DNA from: Candidatus Gastranaerophilales bacterium
GTDB taxonomy: Bacteria; Cyanobacteriota; Vampirovibrionia; Gastranaerophilales; Gastranaerophilaceae
Direction of reading: 5' to 3'
Assembly: GCA_944323275.1 (NCBI GenBank)
Contig: CALUSA010000009.1
Location: forward strand, 1 to 45,132
Length of the DNA stretch: 45,132 bases
This document shows positions 5,501-11,656 of the stretch, piece after piece. A program made the position numbers and the translations under genes. Each line of letters starts with the position of its first letter. Within the stretch, counting starts at the first letter, position 1. A model generated the notes under the pieces. It was not told the DNA's origin. It saw only the letters and a program-made list of their open reading frames with translations, and did no database searches.

Positions 5501-7612
5501 TTAAAGTTTTATTTCAAAAATCTTGACTTTTTCCGGAGAATTTTTTGTTCTTATTGCACCTATATACTCAGCAGGAATTTTTTCATCAATGTTGTCGAGT
5601 GTACTCTGGGTTACAACAATACTTTTACCAAATTCAGAGCAAATATCTTTAATTCGTTCAACAATATCTACTGTTTCGCCCATAACTGTAAAATCAGCCA
5701 GATTAGAAGAACCTATTTGCCCGACAAGTGCATTACCCGTGTTGATTGCAATTTTTACATCTACTGAATAGTTATTTGGCGATTTTTCTTCAAAAGTCTG
5801 TTCATCATATTCTTCAAAGTTCAAATTGCTTACACTTGTATTAATCTCGTCTATTTTTTCCTGAATCTCTATTGCCGCACGCAGGGCATTTTCACTGTCT
5901 TTGCGGGAATGGATAGGATATCCCCAGTAAACAAGCACAGAATTCCCGACAAATCTGTTAATTGTTCCGTTATATTTAAAAATAATTTTTTCTATTGAGT
6001 TAAAAATTTTGTTTATTAATGCAACATATTTTTCCGGAGGAAGTTCGCTTGAAATTTGTAAGTCATTATATATATTGCATGACATAACCGTAACTTTTTG
6101 AACGGTAGATTTCAGGTTAAGCCTGTGAGGTTTGTTCACGAGTTGTTTTAGAACTTTTTCAGATACAAGATTGCCAAATATGCGCTCTATTTTCCTTTTT
6201 CGTTTAATTTCGTGGTGAGCTTTTAGGGAAAAAGCCAGAATAAATATAGACAAAATCCAGTATAAAGGCTCTGCCATATCAATAACCAGTCTGAAACGGG
6301 GATGCGCAAATAAAAATACGGACAAAAGAAGGTATGTAACAATTATTAAACTGCCGTTAATAAAGGCAAGCGGCATATTAGTGGCAATAAGCATAGTTAT
6401 GATTATTGCCATACAAAAGGCTGCCGTAATTATTGCACCTTTTACGGGATTAATGTGTTTTACAAAATTTTTTCTGAGTTTTGCCTGTGTATCTGCGTCA
6501 TTAATGTAATTATCAATGATGGTTGCTTTTATCTGCGCATCAGGCATGTCTTTTGCAACCGGTGTGTTATGTGTTTCCGTCGCAGTTTGTGTCTGTGCGA
6601 TTATTATTATTTTATCTTTAAAAAATTCCAGAGGAATTTTTGTATTATCGTATTCAAAATAATTTGTTCTTCTGACCATACTTAACAGTATTGCATTTAT
6701 CGGAATGTCTGTATAAGTGTTCACATACTTGTGCCAGTTAATAAGAGCCCTGCCTTTTTCATCAAGACGAATGGAATGTTTTGCAGTTTGCAGCGAATTA
6801 TTTTTAATAACAACTTCTTCCGTAAGAGGGTCAATGTCTTTATATTTCATCATTGCAGCAAGCGCAAGCGATGGGATATAAAATTCTTTGTTGCCTTTTA
6901 TTAATCTATAAACCGGCTGGGAGTATCGTATATTTGCATCACGATTTTCTTTGTCCGTAACAAGATTCGTCACAGCCATTGTTGTGCTGTTTGTAAAAAT
7001 ATCAGGTATCGGAGTGTGTGCAAAATATGTTATATGAGAATCGAGTCCTTCATCATAAATATGCATGCTCAAAGCATCGCTTGAGGGAGAATAAGGATTT
7101 TCAAAATTATCAAGGATTTTTGAGGCATCGTATTTTTCTTCCTGTCCTATCTGGGTTTTTAAAGCGGTGGCAAGCACTATATTTTTATAATAACCGAGAG
7201 TATCCGCAAGCTGCATATCAGCTGACGCATAATTACGGGACAAGTCTTCGTAGTTAGAAAAATTTAAATCCACGACAATTACTTTAGGATTTTGTTTTTC
7301 AAGAAAATTTATTACTTTTGCCCATACTTCACGTGACCAGGGCCATCTTTTTAAATTTAATTCCGGCGAATTTGCCGCTTCAAATTGTGTTAAATCGTTT
7401 ATTGAAACTATGACTATATTGCTGTCTGCTTGCTTATATCGCTGCGAAAACAATCCGCCGTCGAGTGTAAGATTGCTTCTTAAATCAACAAATTCATTTT
7501 CCACAATCTCAAATACATTTTTTAAACACTGTGCAAACACAAAAAGTAACACTATTACAGTTGTTGTTAAAAAGACTTTTAATTTATTTATATGCTTAAT
7601 CTTAAAACTCAT
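5501..7612 (-). CDS. CHASE2 sensor with degenerate class III nucleotidyl cyclase domain
   Basis: The 703-residue product starts at 7612, behind GAGGG. Layout: one N-terminal membrane helix, an extracytoplasmic CHASE2 domain (roughly residues 30-370), two to three membrane helices (about 395-470), then a class III cyclase homology domain (about 505-690). The cyclase fold is recognisable (NRFVGNSVLVYWGYP; AINTGNALVGQIGS; DFTVMGETVDIVERI). Both metal-binding aspartates are asparagine, in SCNIYND (about 509) and VGNSV (about 554). The transition-state Asn is Asp (ETVDIVER). It is therefore probably inactive as a classical cyclase and may act as a nucleotide-binding receptor. Its tail converges with rfbH. 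Confidence 0.85.
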   Translation of the reverse strand: MSFKIKHINKLKVFLTTTVIVLLFVFAQCLKNVFEIVENEFVDLRSNLTLDGGLFSQRYKQADSNIVIVSINDLTQFEAANSPELNLKRWPWSREVWAKVINFLEKQNPKVIVVDLNFSNYEDLSRNYASADMQLADTLGYYKNIVLATALKTQIGQEEKYDASKILDNFENPYSPSSDALSMHIYDEGLDSHITYFAHTPIPDIFTNSTTMAVTNLVTDKENRDANIRYSQPVYRLIKGNKEFYIPSLALAAMMKYKDIDPLTEEVVIKNNSLQTAKHSIRLDEKGRALINWHKYVNTYTDIPINAILLSMVRRTNYFEYDNTKIPLEFFKDKIIIIAQTQTATETHNTPVAKDMPDAQIKATIIDNYINDADTQAKLRKNFVKHINPVKGAIITAAFCMAIIITMLIATNMPLAFINGSLIIVTYLLLSVFLFAHPRFRLVIDMAEPLYWILSIFILAFSLKAHHEIKRKRKIERIFGNLVSEKVLKQLVNKPHRLNLKSTVQKVTVMSCNIYNDLQISSELPPEKYVALINKIFNSIEKIIFKYNGTINRFVGNSVLVYWGYPIHSRKDSENALRAAIEIQEKIDEINTSVSNLNFEEYDEQTFEEKSPNNYSVDVKIAINTGNALVGQIGSSNLADFTVMGETVDIVERIKDICSEFGKSIVVTQSTLDNIDEKIPAEYIGAIRTKNSPEKVKIFEIKL

Positions 7613-7771
7613 AATACCCTCATTGAGGCTATTATAATTAATAAATGCTATTAACACAATTAATGTTAAACTTTTTGTAAAATTAATCTCATATATTTGG
7701 CGGTTTTAAAAAAAAGCCTGACAGAGGATTATTATAATAATACCCCGTACTAAAAGGTCCAAATAGCATTT

Positions 7772-8638
7772 ATGCCACAATTTATTTTTTATATTATCGT
7801 AATGATTATAGGTGTAGCACTTCGTGGTGCTGCCGGACGTAGTCTGTACGGCTACGGCGGATATGGTGATTATTATGGAGAAGCTCCCGTAAACAACATT
7901 TTTTCCTGGGGTGCAAATCTCGTTAGAAAAAGAAACAGAAGAATAGCCGCATTAAAAACAGCTGCAAACTATATTAAACCGTACGAAAAACTTTTCGGTT
8001 CGCTCACTTTATCCAACAAATACTGCTCGCTTAACAGAAACAAAGCAGGCGACACAATTGTATGCATCAGCAAAGAGTATGATGAAAACGGAAAATGCAT
8101 GATGCTTTCGGCAAAAAAATTCAGCCCGCTTGATGTTGATGAATATTTTGATATGATGTGCGAAATGTTTAATTATAATACCCGTTATATTGATGTATAT
8201 AATTCTCTGAAAGCAAATGCAATAATAACAGAAACTGTTTATTCTTCCAAACCGTCGGAACAACAAAACAATATCCCGCCTCTGATTCCAAAATCTCAAG
8301 TTGCGCAAAAATATGAGGCAGCAGCTTCCTCAAAAAAAGATAAACAAAAACTTAATAAAGAAATAGAAAATTTTGTAAAACTCACTGACGGATTAACTGA
8401 CGTAAATAACGCTTCCGAGGCTGAACTTACTGCATTGAGCGGCATAAATATTGTTATTGCAAAAAAAATTATCCGCTACAGAGATACAGTAAGACCTTTT
8501 AAATCTGTTGATGATTTTATTGAAGTGATGAATATAAAACCTCATTTTGCAGAGAAATTAAAAAATGAAATTTGTGTAAAGAAAGTTAATATGAAAAAAG
8601 TAAAAAAAGCAAAATCAGAAAGAATTATTGACCTGTAA
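7772..8638 (+). CDS. Membrane-anchored helix-hairpin-helix protein
   Basis: The 288-residue product has one N-terminal hydrophobic helix (about residues 4-20), a Gly/Tyr-rich stretch, a central domain I do not recognise, and a C-terminal ComEA-like helix-hairpin-helix module (DVNNASEAELTALSGINIVIAKKIIRYR, then a second hairpin), followed by a lysine-rich tail. HhH pairs of this kind bind DNA non-specifically in ComEA, or mediate protein contacts. It is first in a five-gene operon; its TAA overlaps the ATG of the next gene by one base. It is unlike ComEA in its large central region. Confidence 0.75.
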   Translation: MPQFIFYIIVMIIGVALRGAAGRSLYGYGGYGDYYGEAPVNNIFSWGANLVRKRNRRIAALKTAANYIKPYEKLFGSLTLSNKYCSLNRNKAGDTIVCISKEYDENGKCMMLSAKKFSPLDVDEYFDMMCEMFNYNTRYIDVYNSLKANAIITETVYSSKPSEQQNNIPPLIPKSQVAQKYEAAASSKKDKQKLNKEIENFVKLTDGLTDVNNASEAELTALSGINIVIAKKIIRYRDTVRPFKSVDDFIEVMNIKPHFAEKLKNEICVKKVNMKKVKKAKSERIIDL

Positions 8639-9255
8639 TGAATATAAATGTTTTTAAAATATTGAATAAAACAAATGCAGAAGGACCTGGAACAAGATTT
8701 TGTCTGTGGGTGCAGGGATGCTCCCGTCATTGCAAAGGCTGTCACGCAAAAAGTACATGGTCGCATAACATTAACAAGCTTATGAGTACAGAGGAAATTT
8801 TCAGCCTGATAAAATCGCAAAAAGATATTGAAGGAGTAACTTTCCTTGGCGGTGAACCTTTTGAGCAGGCGCAGGGTGTGTCGGAGTTAGCACAAATGGT
8901 TAAAGAGTCAGGGCTTTCTGTTATGACTTTTAGCGGCAATTCTTATGAAAAATTAAAACAGAGTAAAGATATTTTTGTTCAAAAGCTTTTAAAATACACT
9001 GACCTGCTGGTTGACGGAGCGTTTGAGCAGGAGAATTTTGACCTTTCACGTCCGTGGGTCGGTTCAAAAAACCAGCGTTACATATTTTTGACAGACCGTT
9101 ATTCAATGCAGGAAATATTACAGTACAAAAATAAAATAGAATTGCATATTAACAAAAACGGAAGCATTTTTGTTAACGGAATGGCAGATTTTAAAAAATT
9201 GAAATTATATCTTACAAAAAATTGCAAACTATCGGAGAATAATTATGCTTGTTAA
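8638..9255 (+). CDS. NrdG-like radical SAM activating protein
   Basis: The 205-residue product has the 4Fe-4S radical SAM motif C-x3-C-x2-C (GCSRHCKGCH), preceded by EGPGTRFCLWVQ as in the anaerobic ribonucleotide reductase activase NrdG, and the GGEP motif (FLGGEPFEQA) that contacts SAM. NrdG-type enzymes make a 5'-deoxyadenosyl radical and install a glycyl radical on a partner. No NrdD or other glycyl-radical enzyme is in this window. Instead it overlaps the Ycf46 ATPase gene by 11 bases, so its partner is probably in this operon. It is longer than typical NrdG (about 155-170 residues). Confidence 0.8.
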   Translation: MNINVFKILNKTNAEGPGTRFCLWVQGCSRHCKGCHAKSTWSHNINKLMSTEEIFSLIKSQKDIEGVTFLGGEPFEQAQGVSELAQMVKESGLSVMTFSGNSYEKLKQSKDIFVQKLLKYTDLLVDGAFEQENFDLSRPWVGSKNQRYIFLTDRYSMQEILQYKNKIELHINKNGSIFVNGMADFKKLKLYLTKNCKLSENNYAC

Positions 9256-10873
9256 AAAGTTATCGAACCTTATAAGAGCAAGATTTCCTTACATTTACAT
9301 CACGACATACGAAGAAGAACGTGTAACTAACCTGCTAAAAAAAATAGTCAGAGAACCTAAGCTTGTAAAAGTACCGAGAGAGGTTTACATCTGGACACAG
9401 ACAAACGGTTTTATTAACGATGAAACAGAAAAGCCTATTCCAGGGACGATTACCCCTTCTAAAGCACTTGAATTTGTTGAAAAATGCGATAAAGACGCTG
9501 TATTTTTATTTTATGACATGCACGTAAATTTTGGTGTAAAAAACAGGGGGTGTGATTATGAACTCGTAAGACGTCTTAGAGATTTAGTAGGCGTTTTAAA
9601 AACCGGTCAGGTTCGCAAAAATGTTTTCTTTATTTCTCCGGATCTGATAATCCCCGATACTTTGCAAAAGGATATAACCATCTGTAACTTCCCGCTGCCT
9701 ACATTAAAAGAAATTAGTGCAAAATTAAACAGCATGATTTCCCAAAATGTTATGGTTAAATCAGATACATTAACGGAAGAAGACAAAGAAAGACTCTGTA
9801 AAGCAGCTCTGGGTTTGACCCTGCAGGAAGCGGAAAATGCTTTTGCGCTTGCAATGGTAAACGACGGAACCATAAGTATTGATGATTTAAAAATTATTAT
9901 GGATGAAAAAATGCAGGTTATTAAAAAAACCGGCATACTTGAATTTGTAACAACAAATCTTAGCATAGATGACATAGGCGGTCTGGATAATCTTAAAAGC
10001 TGGCTTAAAAAGCGAAACAATTCCTGGTCGGAAAACGCTAAAAAATATTGCATCCCTGCACCAAAAGGCGTTCTTATCACCGGAGTTCCTGGCTGCGGTA
10101 AAAGCTTAACGGCAAAAGCAATGAGTGCAATCTGGCAGCTTCCTTTACTAAGGCTGGATTTAGGCAAAATATTCAGCGGGCTGGTCGGAAGTTCCGAGGA
10201 AAATATGCGCAGAGCAATTGCCACTGCAGAAGCTGTAGCACCATCAATTTTGTGGGTAGATGAAATTGAAAAAGGTTTAAGCGGTGTAAATTCAGGCGGT
10301 GACAGCGGTGTTACTTCAAGAATATTCGGACAGTTTTTAACCTGGATGCAGGAAAAAGAAGCACCGGTATTTGTTATTGCAACAGCAAATAACATAAATA
10401 ACCTGCCGCCGGAGCTTATGCGAAAAGGTAGATTTGATGAAATTTTCTTTGTTGACATACCGACCTTTAATGAAAGAGTTGAAATTTTCAAACTGCACTT
10501 GAAAAAACGATTGAAAGATAAAGAAGTATCGCAAAAGGTTCCGATTACGGATGAAGTATGCAAAAAACTCGCCTCGCTCACGGAAGGATTTATCGGTGCA
10601 GAGATAGAACAGGTAGTAATTTCAGCACTTTATGAAGCATTTTTTGAAAAAAGAGCACTGGAATTTAAAGATTTGGAAAAAACAATCAAAAATACGGTGC
10701 CTCTTTCCACTACCCAGAGAGAACAAATACTGGCTTTGAGGGCGTGGGCTAATGTGAGAGCAGTTGCAGCTACTAAAAAAGAAGATTTAACTGCTTATAG
10801 CAATGATGTTGAAAATAATACGGAAGCCAGAGATGTGTCCAAAACACGTGGCGGACGCTCGCTTGATTTTTAA
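9245..10873 (+). CDS. ycf46: Ycf46-type AAA+ ATPase
   Basis: The 542-residue product has an N-terminal alpha/beta region (about 1-235) and a C-terminal AAA+ core: Walker A GVPGCGKS near 280-287, Walker B ILWVDEIEK near 335-343, and an arginine-finger-like MRKGRFDE near 393-400. This layout matches Ycf46, found in cyanobacteria and some plastids; a role in CO2 use has been reported in Synechocystis, but the biochemical substrate is unknown. It overlaps the radical SAM gene upstream by 11 bases and is followed by Ycf35-like and DUF2997 genes. It likely remodels a partner protein using ATP. Confidence 0.88.
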   Translation: MLVKKLSNLIRARFPYIYITTYEEERVTNLLKKIVREPKLVKVPREVYIWTQTNGFINDETEKPIPGTITPSKALEFVEKCDKDAVFLFYDMHVNFGVKNRGCDYELVRRLRDLVGVLKTGQVRKNVFFISPDLIIPDTLQKDITICNFPLPTLKEISAKLNSMISQNVMVKSDTLTEEDKERLCKAALGLTLQEAENAFALAMVNDGTISIDDLKIIMDEKMQVIKKTGILEFVTTNLSIDDIGGLDNLKSWLKKRNNSWSENAKKYCIPAPKGVLITGVPGCGKSLTAKAMSAIWQLPLLRLDLGKIFSGLVGSSEENMRRAIATAEAVAPSILWVDEIEKGLSGVNSGGDSGVTSRIFGQFLTWMQEKEAPVFVIATANNINNLPPELMRKGRFDEIFFVDIPTFNERVEIFKLHLKKRLKDKEVSQKVPITDEVCKKLASLTEGFIGAEIEQVVISALYEAFFEKRALEFKDLEKTIKNTVPLSTTQREQILALRAWANVRAVAATKKEDLTAYSNDVENNTEARDVSKTRGGRSLDF

Positions 10874-10890
10874 GAAAGGATTATAAATTT

Positions 10891-11439
10891 ATGTCTTGTA
10901 CTATATCGTTGTTGCCTTTCGGACTTTTATACGCAGTTGTTTCTTCAATATCGTACGGTATTAAAGCCGAAAGAGAAGCCCGTCTTGCCGAATCGGAAGA
11001 AGCAATAAAAGCTAAAATAAACAGCAAGTTCCAAGAATCCCTTAATTCGCCGCAGGAATTAACACGTGAGCGTCTTAATAAAATTTGTAACGAATATGAC
11101 ACTGTATTTATGGACAGAGATTTGCTTATGAAAACTCTGCAGGAATACGGGATACAAACACTTATGGTAAACAAAAATAAAGTTGAAGCTGACATAGAAA
11201 ATTTTCATTTAAATTTTACAAGAGAAAATGAAACAGTACCGTTTAAATTAAAAGTAACCTGTGAAGAAAGCTGTGATGATACAGTTATACTTGAAGATTT
11301 GAACTCTGAGTACGGAATGAATGCACAGGAAGAATCCTACATAAAAATAAAAGAACGCCTTGCACAAAAAAATCTTCAAATTGACGAGGAAGAAATTCTT
11401 GAGGATAACACAATTGTGCTTACGGTAAATATTAATTAG
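10891..11439 (+). CDS. Ycf35/DUF1257-like protein
   Basis: The 182-residue product starts 17 bases after ycf46 behind AAAGGA. It has a hydrophobic N-terminal stretch (about residues 5-22), a charged alpha-helical linker, then a C-terminal region resembling Ycf35/DUF1257: a D-x-x-x-L-x-x-x-L-x-x-x-G segment (DRDLLMKTLQEYG) and the ending KNLQIDEEEILEDNTIVLTVN, like the family's 'GF-x-I-x-x-E-x-x-x-D-G-x-I-x-L-x-V' tail. The match rests on pattern and gene order (Ycf46, DUF1257 and DUF2997 commonly travel together), so it is moderately sure. The N-terminal hydrophobic extension is unusual. Confidence 0.6.
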   Translation: MSCTISLLPFGLLYAVVSSISYGIKAEREARLAESEEAIKAKINSKFQESLNSPQELTRERLNKICNEYDTVFMDRDLLMKTLQEYGIQTLMVNKNKVEADIENFHLNFTRENETVPFKLKVTCEESCDDTVILEDLNSEYGMNAQEESYIKIKERLAQKNLQIDEEEILEDNTIVLTVNIN

Positions 11440-11449
11440 AGGTATTTGT

Positions 11450-11656
11450 ATGGATAAAAAAAAGCTTAAGATAAAACTTTTACCAAACGGCGAAATAAAA
11501 ATGCACACAGAAGGCATAAAAGGAAAAAAATGCCTTGATTATGCAAAACTGCTTGAGCAACTTGCAGATGCCAAAATTACAACTCAGGAGTTAACTCCGG
11601 AATACTACGAAACGGAAATATACGAAGATAATAACCTGTATAATACCGATCAGTAA
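11450..11656 (+). CDS. DUF2997 family small protein
   Basis: The 68-residue product has the DUF2997 pattern: an N-terminal strand with 'P-N-G-E-I' (KIKLLPNGEIKMHTEGIKGKKCLDYAKLLEQL), with a G-x-x-G-x-x-C motif followed by a helix. The conserved cysteine in GKKCLDY is notable. Function is unknown in the family; it is often adjacent to DUF1257 and AAA ATPase genes. It is the last gene of the operon, 10 bases after the Ycf35-like gene. Confidence 0.7.
   Translation: MDKKKLKIKLLPNGEIKMHTEGIKGKKCLDYAKLLEQLADAKITTQELTPEYYETEIYEDNNLYNTDQ

Follow-up and report, generated by a model that had tools for sequence, protein, structure and literature searches.

Plastid genomes have kept ycf46 and ycf35, and to our knowledge no biochemical function has been assigned to either protein. 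In red algae, ycf35 and ycf46 are among the plastid genes that differ in presence between marine and freshwater species (PMC5940233), and in cyanobacteria DUF2997-ycf35-fed7 has been described as cluster g (PMC4284462). The cyanobacterial Ycf46 gene slr0374 belongs to the stress operon slr0373-slr0374-slr0376, where its loss lowers the activity of the carbonic anhydrase EcaB, and loss of ycf46 leads to a carbon-fixation phenotype (PMC7496141). Here we describe a contig of 45,132 nucleotides (hereafter the window; CALUSA010000009.1 of assembly GCA_944323275.1, positions 1 to 45,132, our contig C9) from a Candidatus Gastranaerophilales bacterium, in which genes of these families are joined in one operon with genes for a helix-hairpin-helix (HhH) protein and a radical S-adenosylmethionine (SAM) protein. 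We observed the same genes conserved together in distant bacteria, arranged in two blocks, with the HhH protein and the ATPase ending in a common C-terminal tail. The five genes are a conserved accessory system. Open-access literature searched by DUF and Ycf names contained no description of the five-gene system or of its tail, and we claim novelty relative to that literature and to the profile libraries searched.

Compared with the cyanobacterial Ycf46/Ycf35/DUF2997 set (PMC4284462, PMC7496141), the window has the same type of ATPase gene followed by a DUF1257-family gene, a DUF2997 gene adjoining the latter, and a related ATPase tail. The cyanobacterial set differs in having a radical SAM gene in one locus only (L115), no tail-bearing HhH protein, and the ferredoxin Fed7 with DUF2997-ycf35 instead. 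Most cyanobacterial loci contain an ~115-amino-acid gene, the ATPase gene and the DUF1257 gene, and this same three-gene layout suggests that they correspond to the slr0373-slr0374-slr0376 operon. Immediately upstream of the ATPase gene, most cyanobacteria sampled (e.g., L131, L138, and L145) have a conserved gene of ~110 to 130 amino acids with an ELVPC ending or one near to it.

A five-gene operon built of two blocks

Five open reading frames (ORFs) were confirmed at positions 7772 to 11656 on the forward strand, and their close packing, reported in an initial annotation of the window, proved exact: the first three genes overlap by 1 and 11 bases, and gaps of 17 and 10 bases follow. They encode, in order, the HhH protein (7772..8638, 288 amino acids), an NrdG-like radical SAM protein (8638..9255, 205 amino acids), a Ycf46-like AAA+ protein (9245..10873, 542 amino acids), a divergent DUF1257/Ycf35-like protein (10891..11439, 182 amino acids), and a DUF2997 protein (11450..11656, 68 amino acids). 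Pfam cut-offs were passed by HHH_3 (E = 2.9e-15), Fer4_12 (E = 3.3e-38), AAA (E = 1.5e-28) and DUF2997 (E = 4.2e-13). The family assignments of that annotation are supported, the Ycf35-like one by a profile-profile match (see below).

Within the genus and its relatives, DUF2997 is patchy, being present in 16 of 59 genomes including the window's own, and most of these keep the five-gene order. When GTDB genomes were scanned with an ATPase-family consensus, 80 loci were recovered, spread over Gastranaerophilales, Bacillota, Actinomycetota, Bacteroidota, Planctomycetota, spirochaetes and cyanobacteria as well as archaeal assemblies and other groups; the same genes recur in the first five of these. 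Outside itself, the window's assembly has its closest matches in Gastranaerophilales. All five genes are found in permuted order on Rhodococcus and Paenarthrobacter plasmids, and a Paenibacillus plasmid carries ATPase-DUF1257-DUF2997-radical SAM. On a Methanosphaera contig, the ATPase gene occurs with that of a tail-bearing HhH protein; the contig ends soon past the ATPase gene and neither DUF gene was found in the assembly. The system is probably present in this archaeon.

The co-occurrence expected by the initial annotation was borne out by gene-neighborhood counts in about 100 loci of several phyla. The commonest complete orders are HhH-radical SAM-ATPase-DUF1257-DUF2997 (18 times) and ATPase-DUF1257-DUF2997-HhH-radical SAM (12 times), and the five-gene arrangement is far beyond chance. 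The HhH gene immediately precedes the radical SAM gene in 38 of the 43 loci with both; DUF1257 comes next after the ATPase gene in 64 cases and DUF2997 next after DUF1257 in 43, and the two blocks exchange their order between phyla. The ATPase-DUF1257-DUF2997 block also occurs without HhH-radical SAM in cyanobacteria, some other bacteria and large phage contigs; as all loci were retrieved via the ATPase, HhH-radical SAM pairs lacking it would escape these counts. The two-block pattern suggests two sub-modules, one the engine and one the client. Because gene calling relied on simple ORF rules, starts in GC-rich loci are unsure; the tails described below are unaffected by this because stops are unaffected. 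Natural gene fusions, which would reveal binding partners, were sought, and no ORF matched two core profiles, the long ORFs of GC-rich loci looking like gene-calling artefacts.

A C-terminal tail shared by the HhH protein and the ATPase

The HhH protein of the window ends in SERIIDL (tail E-R-I-I-D-L-stop, 8618..8638) and the ATPase in RGGRSLDF (tail G-R-S-L-D-F-stop preceded by R-G, 10853..10873). Across phyla, both proteins end in a tail of the form R-x-(I/V/L/M/F)-(D/E)-hydrophobic-COOH. Using a tail-free hidden Markov model of the HhH domain and allowing up to 2 extra residues, we found the tail on 54 of 57 HhH ORFs; of the rest, two are pieces of one broken gene and one ends in GRRVD. Strict counts gave 52/102 for the ATPase, 0/51 for the radical SAM protein, 0/52 for DUF2997, 0/71 for the DUF1257-like protein and 5/894 for unlabelled genes. 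The five unlabelled genes all belong to module operons: four adjoin a core gene and the fifth is the next gene along. The tail thus marks 4 of 45 unlabelled genes adjoining the module versus 1 of 878 others (p = 2e-5), and that one adjoins one of the four. A DNA pattern for the tail has eight matches in the window's genome; the only real ORFs that end at one are the HhH and ATPase genes, the remaining matches being no genes or lying inside one.

Among the five unlabelled tail proteins, Pfam identifies TPR arrays and an Mrr nuclease; two others are short and membrane-like and have no Pfam match. The TPR proteins close with an HhH-like stretch missed by the HhH profile. Because its bearers include TPR and Mrr nuclease domains, the tail stands on proteins of different make. 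Related forms close the cyanobacterial ATPases (VAEYQR followed by M or L, then EF) and the spirochaete ATPases (VRKLEM, VRQLELNK, or YRKIEMK), and a neighboring protein of 138 to 139 amino acids in two spirochaete clusters ends in FSNLEL or FGKLEMD. One short terminal motif is common to different protein families in one type of operon, independently of any correction for kinship. Raw counts, which ignore kinship, show strong associations of the ATPase tail, at p = 7e-10 for the radical SAM gene and p = 3e-5 for the two DUFs.

The tail, the two-block build, the double-AAA architecture described next, and the spread past cyanobacteria to plasmids and phages all go beyond the initial annotation.

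The ATPase models as a double AAA+ protein

The second AAA+ domain of the ATPase is a classical module (PF00004, E = 1.5e-28) with the Walker A sequence GVPGCGKS at residue 280 (10082..10105) and the Walker B sequence DEIEK. In the AlphaFold2 (AF2) model, which has a predicted local distance difference test (pLDDT) score of 88.5, VIA-align matches residues 1 to 507 with the two ATPase domains of p97/Cdc48, reaching Z values of up to 28 over 467 residues. Because of this alignment, residues 1 to ~230 (9245..9934) can be regarded as an AAA-like domain, although a sequence search of the N-terminal domain against the PDB gave nothing significant. This first domain has no Walker A motif, and 103 of 104 ATPase homologues have one Walker A only. 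The protein models as a p97-like double AAA+ protein, with a pseudo-ATPase first domain and an active second one; it would have the two tandem AAA+ folds of p97 but not its two functional ATP sites. Like p97/Cdc48 in its predicted tandem fold, it differs in lacking the first Walker A motif, the p97 N domain and the pore-loop aromatic residue, and in having unrelated partners.

The ATPase shares 41.6% identity over 92% with a Geminocystis AAA protein, whose plasmid also holds DUF1257 and DUF2997. Since no curated Ycf46 model was found in the profile libraries, the name Ycf46 is applied to it here on the basis of similarity to cyanobacterial proteins and operon layout.

DUF1257-like and DUF2997 proteins

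The 182-amino-acid protein has no significant Pfam or NCBIfam match, and PF06868 matched neither it, by hmmscan, nor anything else in the genome. A profile-profile comparison (hhalign) built from 38 of its homologues and 31 DUF1257 sequences, fewer after profile filters, aligned it with the whole DUF1257 domain (Prob 97.6, E = 3.2e-12; Prob 0.2 for DUF2997 as a negative control). Small alignments had given a weak match (P = 0.05), with an actinobacterial 141-amino-acid family as a bridge, and deeper alignments resolved it. Judged by profiles, the protein is a divergent DUF1257/Ycf35 homologue, although not a member by Pfam's own rule, and the label Ycf35-like is therefore right. Its AF2 model (pLDDT 82.6) gave middling matches to a KA1-like fold, the best with Z of 8.2 over 76 residues, and no Foldseek match with E < 0.001.

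The 68-amino-acid protein, for which a profile match had likewise been anticipated, is DUF2997 (PF11211) at 49.4 bits versus a gathering cut-off of 24.1. Its cysteine C28 (11531..11533), in the motif GIKGKKC, is invariant in the homologue alignment, being present in 63 of 63 homologues and in a G..G..C context in 57.

The radical SAM and HhH proteins

The radical SAM protein belongs to its superfamily by PF04055 (34.6 bits versus a cut-off of 29.5) and by a CxxxCxxC motif (C28, C32, C35; 8719..8742) that is kept in 53 of 53 homologues. It shares a minimal radical SAM domain with NrdG and the pyruvate formate-lyase activases, and its best curated model is NrdG (TIGR02491), at 117.1 bits, under the cut-off of 126.1. 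Unlike for these enzymes, no glycyl-radical partner was found in the operon or the genome, and its usual neighbor is the HhH membrane protein. In agreement with the initial annotation, no NrdD gene lies beside the operon; none was detected in the 2.27-Mb, 96.8% complete assembly by TIGR02487 or PF13597, nor was a glycyl-radical domain (PF01228), and a canonical glycyl-radical activase was rejected on this ground. Relatives that hold NrdD have a separate Fer4_12 match adjoining it, with the module on another contig. The protein is unlikely to be a working NrdG or classical activase, because the genome lacks NrdD and the glycyl-radical domain and because of this separate Fer4_12 protein beside NrdD in relatives.

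The HhH protein, a putative client or adaptor, consists of an N-terminal membrane segment, a middle region, a C-terminal HHH_3 domain (residues 210 to 267, 8399..8572), a linker and the tail. The membrane association suspected earlier is supported by a predicted helix at residues 4 to 22 (7781..7837; mean hydropathy 2.1). ComEA-type proteins have the same membrane anchor and HHH_3 domain; the window protein differs from them in its tail and in having module genes as neighbors, and ComEA identity was rejected, the score being 41.8 bits versus the curated cut-off of 152.35 (TIGR01259). Other HhH proteins carry GYF_2 or six HhH repeats in addition. One locus (L033, 8212-12001, reverse strand) has a tandem array of six HhH paralogues, one of them cut by the end of the stretch, with strongly diverged N-terminal parts and a tail on every one; among the five complete copies, identity is 22% in the N-terminal regions, 58% in the HhH domains, 25% in the linkers, and 70% in the last six residues.

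A proposed mechanism and its alternatives

We tentatively propose, with confidence somewhat short of even, that the five genes encode a single ATP-driven protein-remodelling system in which the two blocks are sub-modules and the shared tail is a docking address. The engine would be the p97-like AAA+ protein with its DUF1257/Ycf35-like and DUF2997 companions, and the client side would be the membrane-anchored HhH protein and its co-travelling radical SAM enzyme; it is gene order alone that suggests the client role and the radical chemistry. We infer that the common C-terminal peptide docks engine and client to one receptor, for which DUF1257, DUF2997 and the ATPase ring itself are the likeliest candidates. 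p97, too, recruits cofactors through its C-terminal tail. Such docking might gather ATPase, client and radical SAM enzyme at the membrane, where the ATPase would remodel the client and the radical SAM enzyme would modify the client or a bound partner. The broader proposition, that a portable five-residue C-terminal address joining a motor to varied clients characterizes a widespread undescribed remodelling system of cells and viruses, with cyanobacterial and plastid Ycf46/Ycf35/DUF2997 as its client-poor branch, seems to us evenly poised. Placing Ycf46 and Ycf35 in a widespread system, alongside tail-tagged clients and a radical SAM enzyme, offers a testable lead on these plastid families, and if the tail is a docking code, further clients could be found from sequence alone.

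Several observations weigh against this proposal. The pore loop of the second ATPase domain is GLVG, without the usual aromatic residue, which makes threading by the ATPase uncertain. The association of the ATPase tail with DUF1257/DUF2997 owes part of its strength to relatedness, and tests on independent pairs had too few informative pairs. Moreover, the ATPase tail occurs at two Anaerolineae loci whose genomes gave no match to either DUF, and some phage and deltaproteobacterial ATPases have both DUFs but no tail.

The tail could instead be a client tag that the ring recognizes and pulls, the ATPase's own copy acting as a pseudo-substrate brake and holding the ring inactive until a tagged client takes its place. 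We consider this unlikely, although it would suit the finding that clients of differing make share the same free C terminus behind a variable linker, as well as the two Anaerolineae ATPases that keep the tail without DUF1257 or DUF2997. In the AF2 model of the window ATPase, residues 531 to 540, which include most of the tail, have a pLDDT of 79 versus 59 for the preceding linker (47 for the last two residues), but this confidence is reached in one of five models only. A self-regulatory tail would not be expected to vanish with the partners, yet the ATPase tail is absent in most partner-less loci.

Two further alternatives to the docking proposal appear improbable, each to a similar degree. 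The initial annotation, whose interpretation is partly supported overall, envisaged an activase for a radical protein or metalloprotein: a target would be loaded or opened by the ATPase and activated by the radical SAM protein, and the DUF2997 cysteine would be that target. The intact radical SAM motif and the invariance of that cysteine would fit, as would the NifU-NifS genes that immediately precede the module in several relatives (see below) and the fed7 ferredoxin gene located with DUF2997 and ycf35 in cyanobacteria (PMC4284462). For the ATP-driven loading or activation itself, nothing direct was found. The cysteine is conserved, as the annotation held; however, its role as a specific radical target is not supported, because it is equally conserved in systems without a radical SAM gene. 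The lack of NrdD and of a glycyl-radical domain also counts against such an activase, and so does the HhH gene, not DUF2997, being the usual neighbor of the radical SAM gene.

The other of these two is a DNA-directed system, in which nucleic acid is bound or cut by the tail proteins, whose DNA complexes the engine acts on, e.g., in DNA uptake, mobile-element control or defence. It finds some encouragement in the HHH_3 and Mrr_cat domains detected by Pfam, in the patchy distribution and plasmid location of the module, and in tail-bearing phage neighbors that look SWIM- and WGR-like, but the last assignments were made by eye and not by profile, and the tail also occurs on TPR, GYF_2 and plain membrane proteins. 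No known defence system was recognized by PADLOC on the operon, which gave only generic AAA (IetA) and viperin-like matches. The IetAS anti-phage system was rejected as a candidate, as IteA_antiphage scored 60.6 bits versus a cut-off of 510 and the IetA partner gene is not among the operon genes.

Modification of the tail by the radical SAM enzyme, with the conserved Gly-Gly that precedes Arg on the ATPase tail as the site, seems to us very unlikely. The G-R form of that tail does track the radical SAM gene, 41 cases having both (uncorrected p = 1.6e-12), but related sequences drive part of this count, and the HhH tail of the window is of the E-R and not the G-R form, as are 21 of 53 HhH tails. 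That the protein is the NrdG of a distant NrdD, as its best curated model might suggest, is largely refuted by its sub-threshold score, the lack of NrdD by two models in the 96.8% complete assembly, and the other Fer4_12 protein beside NrdD in sister genomes whose module lies on a different contig.

Related loci and neighboring genes

Spirochaete phage-tail-like injection clusters (L039, L111, and L123) hold the same ATPase and radical SAM genes as the window, DUF2997 in two of the three, and a related ATPase tail. They differ in that these genes lie amid sheath, tube and baseplate genes, with no HhH protein and no DUF1257 found. Among IMG/VR contigs (L168-L245), many viral contigs, several of them >200 kb, carry ATPase-DUF1257-DUF2997, some with a radical SAM gene in addition. 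Three neighboring genes on these contigs are tail-bearing, one of them located between the DUF1257 and DUF2997 genes.

In four Gastranaerophilales relatives (L021, L022, L024, and L026), but not in the window, the NifU-NifS iron-sulphur supply genes stand immediately upstream of the module, ahead of the HhH gene; a fifth relative has them next to a decayed module copy. That copy (L029, G007:C41, 571-1877) follows NifS; it retains an open DUF2997 frame, a broken HhH gene and a truncated DUF1257-like gene, and has lost the radical SAM and ATPase genes. In a further locus (L250, G013:C6:28500-39500), the site after NifS is without the module, and a lone module radical SAM gene (5655-6275, reverse strand) lies upstream of NifU. 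On the reverse strand of the window, positions 5501 to 7657 encode a 718-amino-acid protein that by eye resembles a CHASE2-type sensor with an adenylate-cyclase domain, and homologues of this protein flank the module in two relatives (L025 and L026), on the opposite side.

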